From: Flavisolibacter longurius
GTDB lineage: Bacteria; Bacteroidota; Bacteroidia; Chitinophagales; Chitinophagaceae
Assembly (NCBI GenBank): GCA_013327885.1
Contig: JABUMY010000001.1
Span: 310,001-374,000, forward strand
Reading direction: 5' to 3'
DNA: 64,000 bases
Part shown: in pieces, positions 55,356-61,705 of the stretch
Layout of the letters: every line of letters starts with the position of its first letter
How positions within the stretch are numbered: position 1 is the first letter of the stretch
Program-made: the position numbers and the translations under genes
Notes under the pieces: generated by a model
The model's database searches: none
The model's input: the letters and a program-made list of their open reading frames with translations, nothing else
Told to the model about the DNA's origin: nothing

Positions 55356-55979
55356 TCATTCAATCTTAAGATAATCGTCCGAATTGTTCACTGGATTGGT
55401 AAGATGAAACCGCACAAACTCCTCCCTGCCGCCAAACATATCCAGCACTTCTTGCCGTTTTAGCTTTGTTGGGATGTCGCATAAAATGGAGGCATAAGAA
55501 CTGTAAGGATAGCTTTTGAAATCAGCAACAACGCCATGTGTTTCCGGGTTGCGGTGAATGTAATTGACAAGCCAGTAAAGGTGATCGCTGTTGGTGACTT
55601 CTATGCGTTTAAAATTTTTTTCAAACAGGCTGCCGGTTCTCCCTTCCTGTATTTTGATGGACTTAGCATAACAAAGAAAAAACCGGCGGAATGCTTCGCT
55701 TATAACCTGTGAGAAGTCGGAAAGTATCTTGTTGCCGGTTTGAACCCGGAGTAGCGTCGCGTCTATTTCATCCTGCCGTTTTGTTTTTACCAGAAAATGA
55801 AAATGATTTCTCAGTAGACAATAGGCGTATACATCGAGGTAAGGCGTAAGGTAGCCTGCCAGTTTTTGTAAAAAGTAACCGTAGTTCTCTTCCCTGAAAA
55901 AAATGGGTTCACCGTTGTTGCCACGGTTGAAGATATGGTAAAAGGCTCCGGGCTGCAGGGGCAGGTAAGTTTTGGTCAT
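55356..55979 (-). CDS. REP-associated tyrosine transposase (Y1, NP-type)
   Basis: 207 residues. GAFYHIFNRGNNGEPIFFREENYGYFL is the N-terminal family motif, YAYCLLRNHFHFLVKT (about residue 65) has the HUH histidines, and YWLVNYIHRNPETHGVV (about 150) the catalytic Tyr with N-P. GRTGSLFEKNFKRIEV is also typical. The start at 55979 leaves out upstream codons made of REP sequence. It is flanked by perfect palindromes and is of the same subfamily as the copy at 24.6 kb. Confidence 0.9.
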   Translation of the reverse strand: MTKTYLPLQPGAFYHIFNRGNNGEPIFFREENYGYFLQKLAGYLTPYLDVYAYCLLRNHFHFLVKTKRQDEIDATLLRVQTGNKILSDFSQVISEAFRRFFLCYAKSIKIQEGRTGSLFEKNFKRIEVTNSDHLYWLVNYIHRNPETHGVVADFKSYPYSSYASILCDIPTKLKRQEVLDMFGGREEFVRFHLTNPVNNSDDYLKIE

Positions 55980-55985
55980 TCCTTT

Positions 55986-56020
55986 AAGATATTCCATATC
56001 TCTGAGATATGGAATATCTT
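55986..56020. repeat. Perfect REP palindrome, right of the fourth RAYT
   Basis: AAGATATTCCATATCTC with an exact reverse complement around one T: 17-bp arms. It contains an ATG in frame with the LytTR gene. Confidence 0.85.
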
Positions 56021-56026
56021 CCCGCC

Positions 56027-56926
56027 ATGCGATCCTTTCTTCAACAGCCATACCCGTTCAGCGAAAATGCGGGCCGAAAACTGGTTGTTTGTAGCGGCGT
56101 GGGCCTCTTCATAACGTTTTTCCTGGTTGTGTTTGCGCCCTATGGCCTGGATGAATTGCCCGCAGGACAAAAATGGCTGCATGCCCTGGCCTTTGGTGCG
56201 GTAACCTTTGTGGTGGCTTCGCTGGTACAGATCGTCGCTCCCAAGCTTTTCCCGACCCTTTTTCGCGAAGAGGGCTGGCGCACCTGGAAGGAGATCGTTT
56301 ACCTTCTTTTTACGACCGCCGTAGTTGGCGCCGCCAATTATGTGCTGATGCTTCGGCTTTACCCGCAAAAAACAGAGATGGCCAGCTTTCTGCAGGCCGA
56401 GCTCATCACCCTGCAGGTTGGCATTTTTCCTGTTTGCTTTCTTGTTTTTCTAAAGCAGATGCTTTTGTACCGGCGTTTTGCCACGGAAGCTAGTGCGGTA
56501 ACAACTGACATCCGCGAAGAAGAACAACCGGTGATCGCCGGGCAGGCTCTTTCGGTTCCAGCCATTGTTTTGCGGGGCGATAATCAAAAAGAGGAGGTCA
56601 GCGTTCAGCCCCAAAACCTCCTTTACCTTTCCGCGGCCGACAATTATGTAACGGTCCATTTTCTTGAAAGCGGCAAGCCCGCTACGCAGTTACTCCGCGG
56701 CTCACTCAAAAAAATGGAGGAGCAACTGGCCGGTCAGTCCGCCTTCTTTCGTTGCCACCGTACCTATATCGTCAACCTGCAGCAGGTGCACACGGTAAGC
56801 GGAAATGCCCAGGGACTAAAGCTGCACCTCGACGGGCAGGAAGAGCCCATTCCTGTCAGCCGCAGTCTCACCGATGTGGTCAAAGAAAAGCTTCACCAGC
56901 TTTCCCATTCACCCCAAAAAGCCTGA
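56027..56926 (+). CDS. Membrane-bound LytTR-family transcriptional regulator
   Basis: 299 residues from ATG at 56027 (an in-frame ATG at 56009 lies inside the REP palindrome). Four helices occupy residues ~20-145 (VVCSGVGLFITFFLVVFAPYG, ALAFGAVTFVVASLVQIV, EIVYLLFTTAVVGAANYVLML, VGIFPVCFLVFLKQMLLY). The C-terminal LytTR domain starts at VSVQPQNLLYLSAADNYVTVHF and contains LRGSLKKMEEQL, FFRCHRTYIVNLQQV and IPVSRSLTDVV. It should bind paired direct repeats; a fitting pair lies just downstream. Confidence 0.88.
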   Translation: MRSFLQQPYPFSENAGRKLVVCSGVGLFITFFLVVFAPYGLDELPAGQKWLHALAFGAVTFVVASLVQIVAPKLFPTLFREEGWRTWKEIVYLLFTTAVVGAANYVLMLRLYPQKTEMASFLQAELITLQVGIFPVCFLVFLKQMLLYRRFATEASAVTTDIREEEQPVIAGQALSVPAIVLRGDNQKEEVSVQPQNLLYLSAADNYVTVHFLESGKPATQLLRGSLKKMEEQLAGQSAFFRCHRTYIVNLQQVHTVSGNAQGLKLHLDGQEEPIPVSRSLTDVVKEKLHQLSHSPQKA

Positions 56927-56991: not shown

Positions 56992-57024
56992 TTTGGAAAG
57001 GCCCTTTGCAGCCGGTCATTTTTG
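56992..57024 (+). promoter_or_regulatory. Candidate promoter of the 57040 membrane-protein gene
   Basis: TTTG at 56992-56995, 21-nt spacer, CATTTTTG at 57017-57024 (one mismatch to TAnnTTTG); start codon 16 nt further on. Confidence 0.45.
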
Positions 57025-57039
57025 TAAAAAACATCGACC

Positions 57040-57711
57040 ATGCAAACGTTAACAACTGTTCTTTTGATCTTCCATGTATTGGCCGGCTTTGTGGCCTTGA
57101 TCGCCGGCGGCATTGCATCCGCAACCAAAAAAGGCGGAAGCGGCCATCGCCGTTCCGGCAAATGGTATTTCTGGGGCATGACCGGCGTTTTTGTCACCGC
57201 CGTTGCCGTTTCCATTTTAAAAAGCCTGGCGTTCCTGTTTATGATTGGTTTTTTCAGTTATTATTTCGTGGTGCGAGGCTATCGTATCCTCTACCTCAAA
57301 AAGCTGGGAAAGAGCCAAAAAGCAACAAGCCTCGATTGGGCCATTACCGCCGTGGCCATGCTCTTTGGTCTTGGCCTGGTAACCTGGGCTTATTTGCAGT
57401 TTAGGAGCGGTAGCAGTTTCTGGCCGGTGCCCCTGGTGTTTGGTCTTGTTTCGTCAGGATTTGCCCTGGCCGACATCCGGCTTTTTGTAAAAGGCCCGGC
57501 TACAAAGCTCCACTGGATCACTGGGCATATCACCAGCATGGGTGCCGGTTATATTGCCACCTGGACGGCTTTCATCGTTACCAATGTAACGTTTCTGCCG
57601 CCGGTTTTGGTCTGGCTGCTCCCCAGCCTCATCGGTTCCATCCTGATTGCACAAAGCACCCGCCGTTACACAAAATCCAAAACAAGCACACTGGTTGTTT
57701 CGCCAGCCTAA
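57040..57711 (+). CDS. Hypothetical polytopic membrane protein (DUF2306-like)
   Basis: 223 residues with about seven helices: TVLLIFHVLAGFVALIAGGIA, YFWGMTGVFVTAVAVSIL, FLFMIGFFSYYFVV, LDWAITAVAMLFGLGLVTWA, WPVPLVFGLVSSGFALAD, HWITGHITSMGAGYIATWTAF, LVWLLPSLIGSILI. The spaced His residues (FHVLAG, KLHWITGHI) could bind a metal or haem. Function unknown. The LytTR operator and promoter upstream suggest control by the neighbouring regulator. Confidence 0.72.
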   Translation: MQTLTTVLLIFHVLAGFVALIAGGIASATKKGGSGHRRSGKWYFWGMTGVFVTAVAVSILKSLAFLFMIGFFSYYFVVRGYRILYLKKLGKSQKATSLDWAITAVAMLFGLGLVTWAYLQFRSGSSFWPVPLVFGLVSSGFALADIRLFVKGPATKLHWITGHITSMGAGYIATWTAFIVTNVTFLPPVLVWLLPSLIGSILIAQSTRRYTKSKTSTLVVSPA

Positions 57712-57803
57712 GGAAATGCGCACCTTTTTTGCGGGAAATCTTTAACCCGGTTGCTGGCAGCGGCAACCATTTGGTGCTTTAACTGTTTTACAAAAAAACG
57801 CTC

Positions 57804-58283
57804 ATGGCTTATCCTTCCTTTGCTCTTGTGAATGCCCTGCGGCAGGCGGCCCAGAACCTGCGCAACGGGGCTCCGTATGCCTGGGGACATCACGGTTCGT
57901 GCAATTGCGGACACCTGCTGCAGGTGGTAACGCAGTTGAGTCGCGAAGAAATTGTTCGGCATGCGCAAACCGTGCAGGGCGAGTGGACCGAGATTGCCGA
58001 AGACTACTGTGGTGTTACCAATGTGCCGGCTTACCTGCTGGTGTCGAAGTTGGAAGGCCTGGGACTAACCCCAACGGATATTCACAACCTGGAATACCTG
58101 GAAGACCGCAAGGTATTGGAAGCGTTGCCGGGTGGTTTTCGCTGGCTGAAAAAAAATCAGCGGGAGGACGTGGTTCTTTATTTTGAAACCTTTGGCGCCT
58201 TGCTCGAAGAAAGATTGCTTTCTTCGGTTCCGTTGCCCAAAATAGAAGAATGGCAGCAGTGTTACCAACCGGCGGAAGCTTAA
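57804..58283 (+). CDS. Conserved hypothetical protein (159 aa)
   Basis: A soluble protein with LRNGAPYAWGHHGSCNCGHLLQVVTQLSREEIVRHAQ (an H-H-x-x-C-x-C-x-H metal-site candidate at residues ~29-37) and LTPTDIHNLEYLEDRKVLEALPGGFRWLKKNQREDVVLYFE. No signal peptide or helices. I recognise the pattern from unannotated Bacteroidota proteins but know no function. 95 nt upstream of the M23-DUF559 gene. Confidence 0.7.
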   Translation: MAYPSFALVNALRQAAQNLRNGAPYAWGHHGSCNCGHLLQVVTQLSREEIVRHAQTVQGEWTEIAEDYCGVTNVPAYLLVSKLEGLGLTPTDIHNLEYLEDRKVLEALPGGFRWLKKNQREDVVLYFETFGALLEERLLSSVPLPKIEEWQQCYQPAEA

Positions 58284-58377
58284 ACCGTATACAACTTCAA
58301 CAAGAAGGGTCATTTTCTGAACCCATTTTTTTACTGGACAGGCATAACGCTGTTTCTTCGCAGCAAAGAAACCGGTT

Positions 58378-59592
58378 ATGCCATCGACAATCCTGGAAGA
58401 AGTCTTGAAAGCATCTGCTGCCCATTTTCACCCTGTGGTTCCCTGGCAAAAATGTGACCGGTTGCTGCTTATGGACTTTACAGCTTCAAATATCGAATTG
58501 ACAGATGACACACTCACCAATACCCAACTCTTTTCAGATTACGTAAACAGGAAACTGGCTGAGGTCGGGGCACTTTACGGCATTGGTGGCTACAATGAGC
58601 ACAGGAAGGTGTATAGTCGCAGCAAGCTTTTCGGCCCATCCCCGACAACCACTCCGGTTGTGCAAGATGGTGCTAAAGCCCCTTCCCAGTGGGAAGGGGA
58701 GGAAGAGCGTGAGCTTTCGTTGGCGGAAGAAGAAACAATTGGATACAGGTTTGCTGATCCCAACTTTTATGGAATGTTGCGGGAGTATGCGTTGCAACAC
58801 CGTGCCGTACCAACGGAAGCCGAGGCTATTTTGTGGAACGCCTTAAAAACAAAACAGCTTGCCCACTATAAGTTCCGTCGTCAGCATATTATTGACCGTT
58901 ACATTACCGATTTTGTTTGCTTAAAAAAGAAGCTGGTTGTTGAGGTGGATGGACTTATTCATCAATTACCGAAAAATGCAGAAAGTGATGAACAGCGAAC
59001 GAGGCGTTTAAAGGAGTTAGGCTTTGATGTCATCCGCTTCAGCAACGAAGAAGTGGTAAATAACTTGGAAAACGTTCTTCAGCAAATTCTCATTGCTTTA
59101 GAACAGGTAACCGAAGAAAAAAGTGTCTCCCACCTAAGTTCCCCCACCGGGGGACAGGGGGCCGAACCCCGCCGCCTTCACCTCGGCATCGACATTTGGG
59201 GTAAACCCTACACCAAGGTCATGGCGCCGCTGGATGGCATTGTGCACAGTTTTGCTTTCAACAATGCTTACGGCGATTACGGGGCTACCATCATTATTAC
59301 TCATCAACTGGATGGCATTTCGTTTCATACGCTATATGGGCATCTTAGCTTGAACTCCCTGAAAAATTTACACGAAGGCGATGTAGTGCGAAAGGGCGAT
59401 GTTTTTTGCGAATTTGGAATTCCGTTCGAGAATGGGCAATGGCCGCCGCACCTGCACTTTCAGATTATAAAGGACATGCAGGGCTGGAAAGGCGATTATC
59501 CCGGTGTGTGCCGGTTTTCGGAAAGAGAACAGTACCTGCAGAACTGCCCCGATGCTGATCTTATTTTGGGAATGATGGGAGAGGCAGGGTGA
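58378..59592 (+). CDS. M23-type peptidase with an in-frame DUF559 nuclease-like insert
   Basis: 404 residues. Residues 1-86 (ending VYSRSKLFG) and 263-404 (EPRRLHLGIDIWG onward) make one cytoplasm-like M23 metallopeptidase protein: zinc residues H268 and D272 in HLGID, H358/H360 in PPHLHFQ. Residues ~87-262 are a DUF559 domain, with PTEAEAILWNALK (145-157), FRRQHIIDRYITDFVC and VVEVDGLIHQ (about 187-195, the E-x-D catalytic-like strand) and FDVIRFSNEEV. Both edges hold G/C-rich palindromes. All M23 ligands and the whole frame are kept, so the host protein may still fold. A GATAATnn array follows the stop. Confidence 0.85.
   Translation: MPSTILEEVLKASAAHFHPVVPWQKCDRLLLMDFTASNIELTDDTLTNTQLFSDYVNRKLAEVGALYGIGGYNEHRKVYSRSKLFGPSPTTTPVVQDGAKAPSQWEGEEERELSLAEEETIGYRFADPNFYGMLREYALQHRAVPTEAEAILWNALKTKQLAHYKFRRQHIIDRYITDFVCLKKKLVVEVDGLIHQLPKNAESDEQRTRRLKELGFDVIRFSNEEVVNNLENVLQQILIALEQVTEEKSVSHLSSPTGGQGAEPRRLHLGIDIWGKPYTKVMAPLDGIVHSFAFNNAYGDYGATIIITHQLDGISFHTLYGHLSLNSLKNLHEGDVVRKGDVFCEFGIPFENGQWPPHLHFQIIKDMQGWKGDYPGVCRFSEREQYLQNCPDADLILGMMGEAG
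58636..59163 (+). mobile_element. DUF559 cassette inserted in the M23 gene
   Basis: About 528 bp (176 codons, a multiple of three). Left edge: after TTC GGC; contains a perfect palindrome CCCCTTCCCA-G-TGGGAAGGGG at 58679-58699. Right edge: before GAA CCC CGC; contains CCCCCACCGGGGGACAGGGG with GCCGAA at 59143-59165. DUF559 belongs to the restriction-endonuclease-like superfamily. The interior looks more A/T rich than the flanks. Mobility is inferred. Confidence 0.6.
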
Positions 59593-59595
59593 AGA

Positions 59596-59635
59596 GATAA
59601 TGCGATAATATGATAATGTGATAATTGGATAATGG
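59596..59635 (+). repeat. Five tandem GATAATnn units after the M23 gene
   Basis: GATAATGC, GATAATAT, GATAATGT, GATAATTG, GATAATGG, starting 3 nt after the stop; same word as at 26660. Confidence 0.9.
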
Positions 59636-59724
59636 AGCGATGTCACTTTAGTTTTCCCCCGTGAGATTTATCCGTGTTACTATAAATAAAACAACTCCTT
59701 TTTGCTAAAATATTTCAATAGCTG

Positions 59725-59994
59725 TTAACTAAGCGAACAAACGGAAAAGCCAATGAGCAATATTAAACCGGAGAGCAGAAAATAATATTGGCCATCACCG
59801 GTGCGGTTACGGTTGCGAATCATACCTATTACAAAATTGACAGGCGCCAGAAGCAAGATCAGGGTGCCACTTGTAAATAACCGGGGCATGGTGTACCCGC
59901 CGGAAGAAGAGGAACTGCCAAGCAAAAGATCCAGCAGAACCAGCAACAAGGCAATGCCTGCATTGATCAACAGCGGTCGTTTCATCTTTTGCAT
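59725..59994 (-). CDS. Small membrane protein, paralogue A
   Basis: 89 residues (alternative start at 59985). Three hydrophobic segments: LLINAGIALLLVLLDLLLG, LILLLAPVNFVIGMI and YYFLLSGLILLIGFSVCSLS. The end GFSVCSLS is shared with the next protein (GFSVCSALIR). The two genes are 32 nt apart in one direction. No function known. Confidence 0.6.
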   Translation of the reverse strand: MQKMKRPLLINAGIALLLVLLDLLLGSSSSSGGYTMPRLFTSGTLILLLAPVNFVIGMIRNRNRTGDGQYYFLLSGLILLIGFSVCSLS

Positions 59995-60026
59995 GAGCGT
60001 AATTGTTGGTTAGTAAAAAATATATT

Positions 60027-60287
60027 CTACCGGATAAGGGCACTGCACACAGAAAAGCCAATCACCAGGCTAAGCAAGGTTCCCAGCAGAAGTCCCTGTC
60101 CCGTGGGTCTTAACCTTTCAATGAAAACAAATACAACACCCAGCATAAATTGAACGATCATCCCAAAGATCCACAGGAGCCCGATGCTGATAAATGTGCC
60201 TTCGGTATTTTGGCCGAGCAGCATCAGTACCACCAGCACCATGTTGATGCCAAAAACAATGGCTGTTGTGCGCATCGCTTTGTTCAT
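60027..60287 (-). CDS. Small membrane protein, paralogue B
   Basis: 86 residues with three hydrophobic segments: TAIVFGINMVLVVLMLL, FISIGLLWIFGMIVQFMLGVVFVFI and GLLLGTLLSLVIGFSVCSALIR. Same layout and C-terminal motif as its downstream neighbour, so the pair probably arose by duplication. It follows the radical SAM gene by 20 nt and may belong to that operon. Confidence 0.6.
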   Translation of the reverse strand: MNKAMRTTAIVFGINMVLVVLMLLGQNTEGTFISIGLLWIFGMIVQFMLGVVFVFIERLRPTGQGLLLGTLLSLVIGFSVCSALIR

Positions 60288-60307
60288 GAGACTTCGATTT
60301 CAGTTGG

Positions 60308-61705
60308 CTATGACCCGTAAGCCGGTACCAGTTGTTTCAGGTATTCTTCTTTTTCATCGCGGTAAAACAGGTTCATCGTTTCAAAAGGGATAATGCGACC
60401 GTCTTTGTGCACAATGTGCACGCAGCTTTTTTTAATGGCCCGCACATCAAAATCCCAGGCATCAATAAACCGCATAATGATGATGCGAAAAAGATTGTTG
60501 TAGCCCAATCCTGGTGCATGCACTTCGGGCAGGCAGCAAAGCAATTGCTTGAATTTTTCCTCGGTTCGGTCCACCGATATACCCGTGCTGAAGATCTGTA
60601 GCATCTGCTCGTGCAATCCCCTGTCCTGCTCGTACACGATGGTATTCTTGCTGCTGTTCAGCAAAAGTTCGGGATCAACATACCGCGTCAGCGGAAAAAC
60701 CTGCCCGTTCAATTTCAGGGCATAACCCATTGCCAGCGCATCGGGGTTGCAAGGCACAGGCAGCAGGTCGTTGGGCTGAAAGATGCTTGTTTGCGCCAGG
60801 ATCTTTTTTCGTACATCCGTCAGCGTTATACGGTCGGTTGCGGGGTTAAAGCTTTCGTTACGGCCGGCAACCTGCGTGGGCTGAAACGTAACGCCTCTCA
60901 CGCAAGGTTGCTTTAATGCGTATTCAATGATCTCACCAATCTCGTCATCGTTCACACCTTGCTGCAGGGTGACCACCAGTGTGGTGGAAAGGTTCAATTT
61001 GTTCAGGTTCTCCAATGCCTGTTTTCGAATCTCCGTCAGGTCTTTTCCTCGCATCTGCAGCAGTGCTTCCGGCTTAAAAGAATCAAACTGCAGGTATACC
61101 TCAAAGTCGGGTTGGTAAGAGGCCAGCCGTTTGGCAAATTCAAAATCTTTGGCAATGCGAATACCGTTGGTATTTACCATCAGGTGCTTGATGGGTTTTG
61201 TTTTGGCGATAGCAAGAATCGCAAAAAAATCGGGATGGATCGTTGGTTCGCCGCCGCTGATCTGCACCACATCGGGTTCGCCTTCGTTGGCTACTATGAT
61301 GTCCAGCATCTTTTCCACTTCTTCTACCGTGCGGTGGCGGCCATGATGCGGCGAACTCATGGCATAGCAGGTAGGACAACTAAGGTTGCACCGGTCTGTG
61401 ATCTCGACAACGGTAAGACAACTGTGCTGTTCATGATCGGCGCACAGGCCGCAATCGTAAGGGCAGCCGTGCTGCGTTTTTGTGTTGAAGCGCAGCGGCA
61501 CTTCGGAGGGTTTGTTGTAGTTGCGGATGTTTTTGTAATACGCACTGTCGGTGGCAATGAGCACTTTCTGAAAGCCGTGTTCGGGACAGGATTTCAGCAT
61601 ATATACCATCTCGCCTTCAAACACAATTTTGGCGTCCACCCGTTTGAGGCAGTGCGGACAAAGGCTGATGGTAAAGTCGTAGTAAGTATGTGAACGTTCA
61701 GGCAT
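60308..61705 (-). CDS. Radical SAM enzyme related to tetraether lipid synthase (MJ0619/Tes type)
   Basis: 465 residues. N-terminal CPHC (16-19) and SCPEHG (C40) form a rubredoxin-like zinc site; HGCPYDCGLC has a C-x3-C-x2-C at C81/C85/C88; EITDRCNLSCPTCYA holds the radical SAM motif C106/C110/C113; ISGGEPT is the SAM-binding GGE. The C-terminal FIDAWDFDVRAIKKSCVHIVHKDGRIIPFETMN block also matches the MJ0619 group. Tes joins two lipid tails by C-C bond formation. Here the true substrate is unknown, but the 8-nt overlap with an Lgt-like gene points to a lipid or lipid-linked target. Confidence 0.82.
   Translation of the reverse strand: MPERSHTYYDFTISLCPHCLKRVDAKIVFEGEMVYMLKSCPEHGFQKVLIATDSAYYKNIRNYNKPSEVPLRFNTKTQHGCPYDCGLCADHEQHSCLTVVEITDRCNLSCPTCYAMSSPHHGRHRTVEEVEKMLDIIVANEGEPDVVQISGGEPTIHPDFFAILAIAKTKPIKHLMVNTNGIRIAKDFEFAKRLASYQPDFEVYLQFDSFKPEALLQMRGKDLTEIRKQALENLNKLNLSTTLVVTLQQGVNDDEIGEIIEYALKQPCVRGVTFQPTQVAGRNESFNPATDRITLTDVRKKILAQTSIFQPNDLLPVPCNPDALAMGYALKLNGQVFPLTRYVDPELLLNSSKNTIVYEQDRGLHEQMLQIFSTGISVDRTEEKFKQLLCCLPEVHAPGLGYNNLFRIIIMRFIDAWDFDVRAIKKSCVHIVHKDGRIIPFETMNLFYRDEKEEYLKQLVPAYGS

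Follow-up and report, generated by a model that had tools for sequence, protein, structure and literature searches.

An in-frame DUF559 nuclease cassette in an M23 peptidase gene of Flavisolibacter longurius, probably a homing-like mobile element of Bacteroidota

The window analysed here, a 64,000-nucleotide stretch of Flavisolibacter longurius DNA, contains an open reading frame of 404 residues at 58378..59592 (+) which, from the ORF list and Pfam, encodes an M23 peptidase homologue with a DUF559 (Vsr/EDxHD-type) nuclease in its linker. The insert is probably a splice-free, in-frame, homing-like selfish mobile element of Bacteroidota, one that would be translated with its host, cleave DNA and move. 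DUF559 cassettes are present or absent at fixed sites, are scattered over the host trees, recur in unrelated genes, have paired ends and conserve catalytic-type residues.

The cassette within its host gene

Pfam matches both parts of the protein, DUF559 at residues 135-241 (58780..59100 (+), E 6.5e-34) and Peptidase_M23 at residues 267-366 (E 2.3e-14); the score for DUF559 (PF04480) is 116.5 bits, above the curated cut-off of 20.6. This bears out the initial annotation, made from the sequence alone, which had placed a DUF559 domain inside an M23 peptidase. As it also stated, 176 codons separate FG from EPRRLHLGID and the zinc ligands are kept: HxxxD (in LHLGID) and HxH (in PPHLHF), which we take to be the M23 zinc-ligand motifs, are both found in the peptidase part.

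The host N-terminal region (about residues 1-85, 58378..58633 (+)) is kept in uninterrupted orthologues, and comparison with these orthologues places the cassette at 58634..59162 (+), about 529 nt running from GCCCATCCCC to GGGGGC; since it stands in place of native linker, its borders may be off by a few bases. The host M23 domain, located by Pfam and orthologue comparison, begins EPRRLHLGIDIWG and occupies 59164..59592 (+). Between the same anchors there are 555 nt in the window and 42 nt in the uninterrupted locus L007, a net difference of 513 nt or 171 codons; the linker is also 42 nt in L009, L010 and L012, and measures 555, 609 and 576 nt in three carriers. The view that a cassette had been spliced into an otherwise complete gene therefore holds as regards the in-frame cassette, and fails as regards addition to an intact linker, since most of the short native linker has been replaced.

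The G/C-rich palindromes reported at both borders are real, each pattern occurring once in the window where 100 shuffles give an expectation of 0.00. The left palindrome, CTAAAGCCCCTTCCCAGTGGGAAGGGG (arms and spacer CTAAAGCCCCTTCCC-AGT-GGGAAGGGG), lies at 58673..58699 (+); the right one, CCTAAGTTCCCCCACCGGGGGACAGGGGG (CCTAAGTTCCCCC-ACC-GGGGGACAGGGGG), lies at 59133..59161 (+). An outer left end, GCCCATCCCC (58634..58643 (+)), was recognised by comparing cassettes, and stands to the left of those in IspG (L052), MetH (L054) and M23 (L062), and, as GCCCAACCCC, in another MetH (L051). In many relatives the left and right palindromes are copies of each other; in contrast, those of the window copy are unlike each other (as judged by eye, the copy being outside the best 40 paired flanks), and this copy may be composite or decayed.

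The predicted structure of the protein has a mean pLDDT of 86.4 and shows two confident domains; on either side of the insert, where it meets the host, a stretch is disordered (pLDDT <50). The left linker (residues 93-118, 58654..58731 (+)) spans the left palindrome, and the 3' end of the right linker (residues 248-254, 59119..59139 (+)) overlaps the right palindrome. The DUF559 part resembles 3hrl (TMt 0.91; profile E 1.9e-33) and the homing endonuclease I-Bth0305I (3r3p_B: TMt 0.74, rmsd 5.6, E 7.4e-4; profile E 2e-6). Residues E24, Q44, D53, D66 and H70 are present in all 42 embedded copies, and E64 in 41 of the 42, the copies having been found by HMM and not by motif; this retention suggests selection for nuclease function rather than a structural filler. 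The Vsr-like catalytic fold and the conserved catalytic-type residues of EDxHD homing endonucleases are thus both found in the cassette.

Since the same arrangement occurs in G003 and G015, both listed as single-contig genomes, it is unlikely to be an assembly artefact of the window genome (G000; 5.75 Mb, 52 contigs).

Empty sites and unrelated hosts

Comparison of 31 orthologous M23 ORFs (the best 30 loci) shows DUF559 in the linker of three (G000, G003 and G015), a nuclease-free palindromic insert in one (G011) and neither in 27, so that carrying DUF559 at this place is not general among the orthologues. The 27 include a moderately longer linker in L013, L028 and the second ORF of L019, and also L011 and L014, where contig ends cut in before the N-terminal side of the linker is complete. 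The window ORF is the sole close M23 match in its genome, two further matches having E values of 3.7e-7 and 4.7e-6. In TDO the window genome has a plain loop, G006 and G009 have a cassette and G011 has a nuclease-free mini, in a comparison of which three rows were read in part. Insert-free orthologues were found for M23, TDO, RecG and MetH. The minis of G011 (L021 and L211), about 45-50 codons in M23 and TDO, occupy loops that hold DUF559 cassettes in relatives; at the right end the two minis resemble each other.

Nearly identical border palindromes accompany DUF559 in MetH (L051) and IspG (L052) besides the M23 gene of the window genome. The initial proposal of a mobile cassette had made this recurrence a test; the insert-free orthologues and the recurrence of DUF559 cassettes in unrelated genes support it well. 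In total, 112 embedded domain copies fall under 23 host labels, or 18 after removal of terminal fusions (ArgB, Gmk, HemE) and two restriction-enzyme hosts. Hosts named by Pfam are MetH, LeuRS, MetRS, RecG, UvrA, CinA, IspG (GcpE), adenine deaminase, an Aldedh-MaoC protein, a B12/MeaB mutase, UDP-GlcNAc 2-epimerase, guanylate kinase, DegT, AroC, TDO, HsdR, an Eco57I-type methylase and HemE (URO-D); the putative IleRS, RecQ and ArgB hosts were assigned by us from Pfam matches of broader scope (tRNA-synt_1 with DUF5915, DEAD with Helicase_C, and AA_kinase, respectively). In the epimerase, DegT, amidohydrolase, chorismate synthase and TDO, a single Pfam domain is matched as two stretches with the insert between them.

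The window genome has five DUF559 matches: the window copy, one further in-frame copy, two intergenic copies and a weak one inside a long ORF. A small Cys-rich gene, presumably DUF5522, holds the second in-frame copy close to its start. In L003 and L147 the cassette follows the second codon of such a gene, the start of which overlaps the end of a TrmB-like gene (named by eye); as read in L003, the cassette supplies the last codons and the stop of the upstream gene.

A DUF559 match is present in 49 of 98 relatives. Above 80 bits the HMM survey yielded 92 domain copies, of which 42 are embedded and 50 free-standing; lower-scoring, weaker or fragmentary matches were left aside. Of the embedded copies, 35 of the 42 are in hosts other than ArgB, HemE and the restriction-enzyme ones. 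The scan of named genomes gave 80 loci (the best 80 of 571 confirmed stretches), 68 of them embedded, a proportion that is not a frequency since the motifs were drawn mostly from embedded copies. The titles of these best 80 stretches are of Bacteroidota type in all but one, which is labelled Nitrotoga. Rows L006, L008 and L025 (the same places as L002, L062 and L064) and L042 (the same place as L169) were left out. One of two L180 copies was omitted from the host-label count, the nuclease tree and the residue count, giving 62 free rows, and retained in the hairpin count and inverted-end scoring, giving 63. The phage collection yielded 2 records and the plasmid collection 36, all below 60% identity and none covering 80% of the query.

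Some genes carry two DUF559 cassettes (LeuRS in L169, from G029; MetH in L097 and L134), and the LeuRS genes in L042, L047 and L049 also have, by eye, nuclease-free palindrome-like insertions at further sites. A GIY-YIG nuclease in an HsdR ORF that also holds DUF559 (L158, residues 275-343) was considered as a second cargo and rejected, the domain having no inverted repeats around it.

On a nuclease tree of 174 domains and 116 columns, the embedded host label requires at least 31 changes, where 22 is the minimum for 23 labels. The copies cluster by host gene, although many forks are open: those of RecG, CinA, ArgB, DUF5522 and TDO each form one side of a branch (SH-aLRT 92 for the RecG cassettes, which come from five genera). 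MetH accounts for 9 host changes, LeuRS for 8 and IleRS for 5, starred branches alone forcing one each. Nuclease lineages thus seem to stay long with one host site and sometimes to change host.

Copies detected as open frames are bound to be in frame, so host-gene queries give the fairer test of reading frame; every cassette found that way is open and in frame (RecG 5/5, M23 3/3, TDO 2/2 and MetH 7/7, the last including L273, which is cut by its contig). All 17 hand-read inserts are a multiple of three in length; as 16 of these had been chosen for lying in one open frame, the lengths were not used as an independent test.

Flavobacterium RecG, compared at KLW..PPHVLVMTATP in 30 loci, carries a cassette in 5, a linker of 11-14 residues in 3 and a plain five-residue linker in 22. 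Of these 30 loci, the ones nearest to the occupied F. cucumis (G123, G166 and G112) are empty, and G100 differs from G123 and G166 in cassette occupancy although the hosts are very close. F. cucumis DSM 18830 has cassettes in both RecG and MetH, and Winogradskyella sediminis DSM 28134 has one in MetH. G189 falls into one clade with F. difficile, which is occupied; the RecG of G189 retains AKASPSPSNDGASV, encoded by DNA that matches the cassette's left end. This is an in-frame remnant (footprint) and shows that cassettes can be lost. A cassette is present in 7 of 30 Flavobacterium MetH loci, the right junction being at the same place in all seven and the left one varying. No target-site duplication is evident at the RecG or MetH junctions, where very short ones could be hidden by the replacement of host bases.

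On the RecG tree (30 loci) the five carriers need five changes, at least three of them forced by starred branches; on the MetH tree (30 loci) the seven carriers need five, at least four of them forced, with L273 included on the basis of a separate MetH reading in which its cassette was seen, its left part being cut by the contig. Shuffled labels give a mean of 4.8 changes for RecG and of 6.4 for MetH, with values as low as the observed one in 52 of 500 shuffles for the latter. The scatter is what random labels also give and therefore carries little sign of vertical descent; on its own it cannot separate gain from loss. Cassette identity is nearly uncoupled from host identity in MetH (rho 0.19 over 171 pairs, from 19 of 22 loci, with L121 and L268 in the same genome): L268 and L272 have hosts 84% alike and cassettes 51% alike, and L082 and L065 have hosts 57% alike and cassettes 70% alike. 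In RecG the two are correlated (rho 0.60 over 15 pairs, 6 of 9 loci). The fixed site, empty alleles and host-tree scatter of a homing element are all found here (RecG 5/30, MetH 7/30), and repeated loss could contribute to the scatter.

Palindromic ends and nuclease-free pairs

Scoring of each copy's own left flank against its own right flank gives 16 or more in 43 of 111 embedded copies (one row of the 112 being too short) and 41 of 63 free-standing ones. The control, a left flank against a foreign right flank, reaches this score in 52 of 1110 and 15 of 630 comparisons, respectively. In the HMM survey alone, 21 of the 42 embedded copies pass the threshold. The inverted flanks are perfect over 40 nt in L040 (LeuRS) and over 28 nt in L043 (TDO). 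Terminal inverted repeats, as in IS elements and classical transposons, are found across copies; in the window copy the ends are unmatched. A count of hairpins with a GC stem of at least 8 on both sides separated the groups weakly (5/112 embedded, 3/63 free, 0/112 shuffled) and was set aside in favour of the inverted-end scores. Palindromic target sites were also dropped: flanking bases looked complementary in a few cassettes and may belong to the repeat.

Reading frames differ between copies: CCTCAYCCC, the strict left motif, occurs in two (7 and 4 of 11 cases) and the right motif, CCCCC..GGGGG, in three (20, 16 and 5 of 41). The left count is the safer one, since the loose right motif combines arms of length five with arms of length six, a mixture that can shift its phase. 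As the palindromes are read in several frames, it is the DNA rather than the peptide that is conserved.

When up to 3 mismatches are allowed, the right end of the window copy, CCTAAGTTCCCCCACCGGGGGACAGGGGG, has 53 matches in its own genome, 27 of them exact, against 0 for the control. The surroundings of the 30 matches given as loci (L328-L357) contain 15 distinct inverted pairs of 204-769 bp, 13 with stops in all six frames and 2 open in one frame. These nuclease-free pairs look like MITE-type units. Twelve of the 15 measure 204-285 bp, and several have, by eye, a terminator-like hairpin inside.

Mode of spread and related systems

The element, which has no recognisable splicing function, appears to consist of a Vsr-like DUF559 nuclease, about 120 codons long, flanked by GC-rich palindromes; in many copies these ends are terminal inverted repeats. 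Its survival in conserved genes would depend on a permissive loop or linker, an open host frame, and flexible linkers around a compact folded domain, so that the host protein would tolerate the cassette as an extra domain. Spread is most likely homing-like: the retained nuclease would cut cassette-free alleles near the site, whereupon repair would copy the cassette in; new host sites may be founded by rarer ectopic events. The nuclease-free minis and the footprints would be decay products or non-autonomous relatives. Of this reading, the translation of the fused protein, the cleavage, the repair-mediated copying and the identity of the protein responsible for the first insertion are inferred; what makes new insertions is a separate question from homing-like spread. 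An old insertion with repeated loss could also give the patchiness, and the end scores pass in only 43 of 111 embedded copies; both points count against a homing-like reading, as do the unmatched ends of the window copy and the lack, by Pfam, of a DNA-binding domain. The replacement of host residues means, moreover, that insertion is not simple.

Ordinary domain accretion, in which DUF559 was fused long ago for a function and then inherited vertically with losses, is unlikely. The clustering of cassettes by host gene, the deletion footprint of the G189 RecG and the correlated RecG identities speak for it, and the terminal fusions to ArgB-, Gmk-, HemE- and (L124) IspG-type proteins, together with the restriction-enzyme DUF559, may fit it as well. 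It thus explains part of the pattern, but not the host range across functionally unrelated enzymes, the paired palindromic ends, their reading in several frames or the uncoupled divergence of MetH cassettes and hosts; the very close RecG hosts that differ in the cassette also stand against it. It is rather unlikely that the palindromic ends are moved by another enzyme, such as a RAYT/Y1 or DDE transposase, with DUF559 as a passenger or repair factor. The abundance of nuclease-free inverted pairs with the same 29-mer ends (53 matches, 15 distinct pairs) and the eight Y1 transposase matches of the window genome would suit such an arrangement; yet the 29-mer is at none of the eight Y1 loci, five of which have inverted repeats (score above 16) of other sequence, the REP-type transposase of the window is flanked by an AT-rich palindrome, and neither RecG nor MetH shows an evident target duplication. 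Mobility driven by a RAYT was accordingly rejected. The window transposase in question, a REP-associated tyrosine transposase-like ORF at 55356-56051 (-), matches NF047646 with 44 bits, below the cut-off of 80; the palindrome on both its sides (ATTCCATATCT..AGATATGGAAT) is unlike those of DUF559.

Leucyl-tRNA synthetase (LeuRS) is an essential enzyme, and the cassette-bearing genomes G004, G011 and G017 (drafts) show one strong LeuRS match each, which would suit a reading in which the insert is removed from the RNA or protein by cryptic splicing, or skipped by the ribosome. That reading is very improbable. Cassettes from host-gene queries are all open and in frame, which a bypass would not need, and since the inserts are in frame neither splicing nor bypass is needed. 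The initial annotation had seen no intein or intron motifs, and Pfam and Rfam agree: no intein splicing domain was found by Pfam in the window ORF or the host ORFs examined, no intron by Rfam within 57000-61000, and no constant junction residue or junction nucleophile by eye in the hand-read cassettes.

The homing-like element favoured here shares features with several known systems. Rickettsia palindromic elements are described as palindromic selfish DNA lying in frame inside unrelated genes, about 150 bp long with an ORF for a conserved peptide, and no nuclease is mentioned in the portion of the account consulted (PMC10969869). DUF559 cassettes are likewise palindromic, in frame and in unrelated genes; they differ, in a comparison by description only, in their size of roughly 440-570 bp, conserved nuclease and often paired ends. 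From the sections available of the respective papers, a DUF559-containing gene has been placed in the EDxHD/Vsr-like homing endonuclease family (PMC9403480), whose members reside with self-splicing introns or as free-standing genes (PMC3943268). With these enzymes (I-Bth0305I) the cassettes share the catalytic fold, fixed sites in conserved genes and a patchy distribution; unlike them, they have no splicing element, intron or intein residence not being found by Rfam (57000-61000) or Pfam, and, by Pfam, no extra DNA-binding domain such as is described for EDxHD enzymes. Inteins are also in-frame nucleases inside conserved proteins, but the cassettes have GC-rich palindromic ends instead of a splicing domain or constant junction residue. 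As with REP/RAYT systems and MITEs, there are many-copy hairpin palindromes and nuclease-free inverted pairs; here, however, the palindrome goes with DUF559 and not with the Y1 transposases of the genome (0/8 loci). VsrA of Caulobacter, also a DUF559 protein, differs in being free-standing; in the parts of its description consulted it is linked to DNA damage in vivo and proposed for mismatch repair, with no report of mobility (PMC12907096). Among the titles and abstract openings of open-licence papers, no description of DUF559 cassettes inside other genes was recognised.

We consider it an evenly balanced possibility that these cassettes are selfish elements of a new class, homing in frame and without splicing, which invade essential genes and escape purging as translated, harmless domains, their lineages staying long at one site with occasional jumps and leaving minis and in-frame footprints that lengthen protein loops. 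If true, this would give selfish DNA a further route into essential genes, among them those of aminoacyl-tRNA synthetases, that needs no splicing. In Bacteroidota it would also supply protein insertions generally and explain odd domain insertions, and the occupied loops would be natural domain-insertion sites for protein engineers. The matched empty and occupied alleles make it testable how proteins acquire inserted domains.
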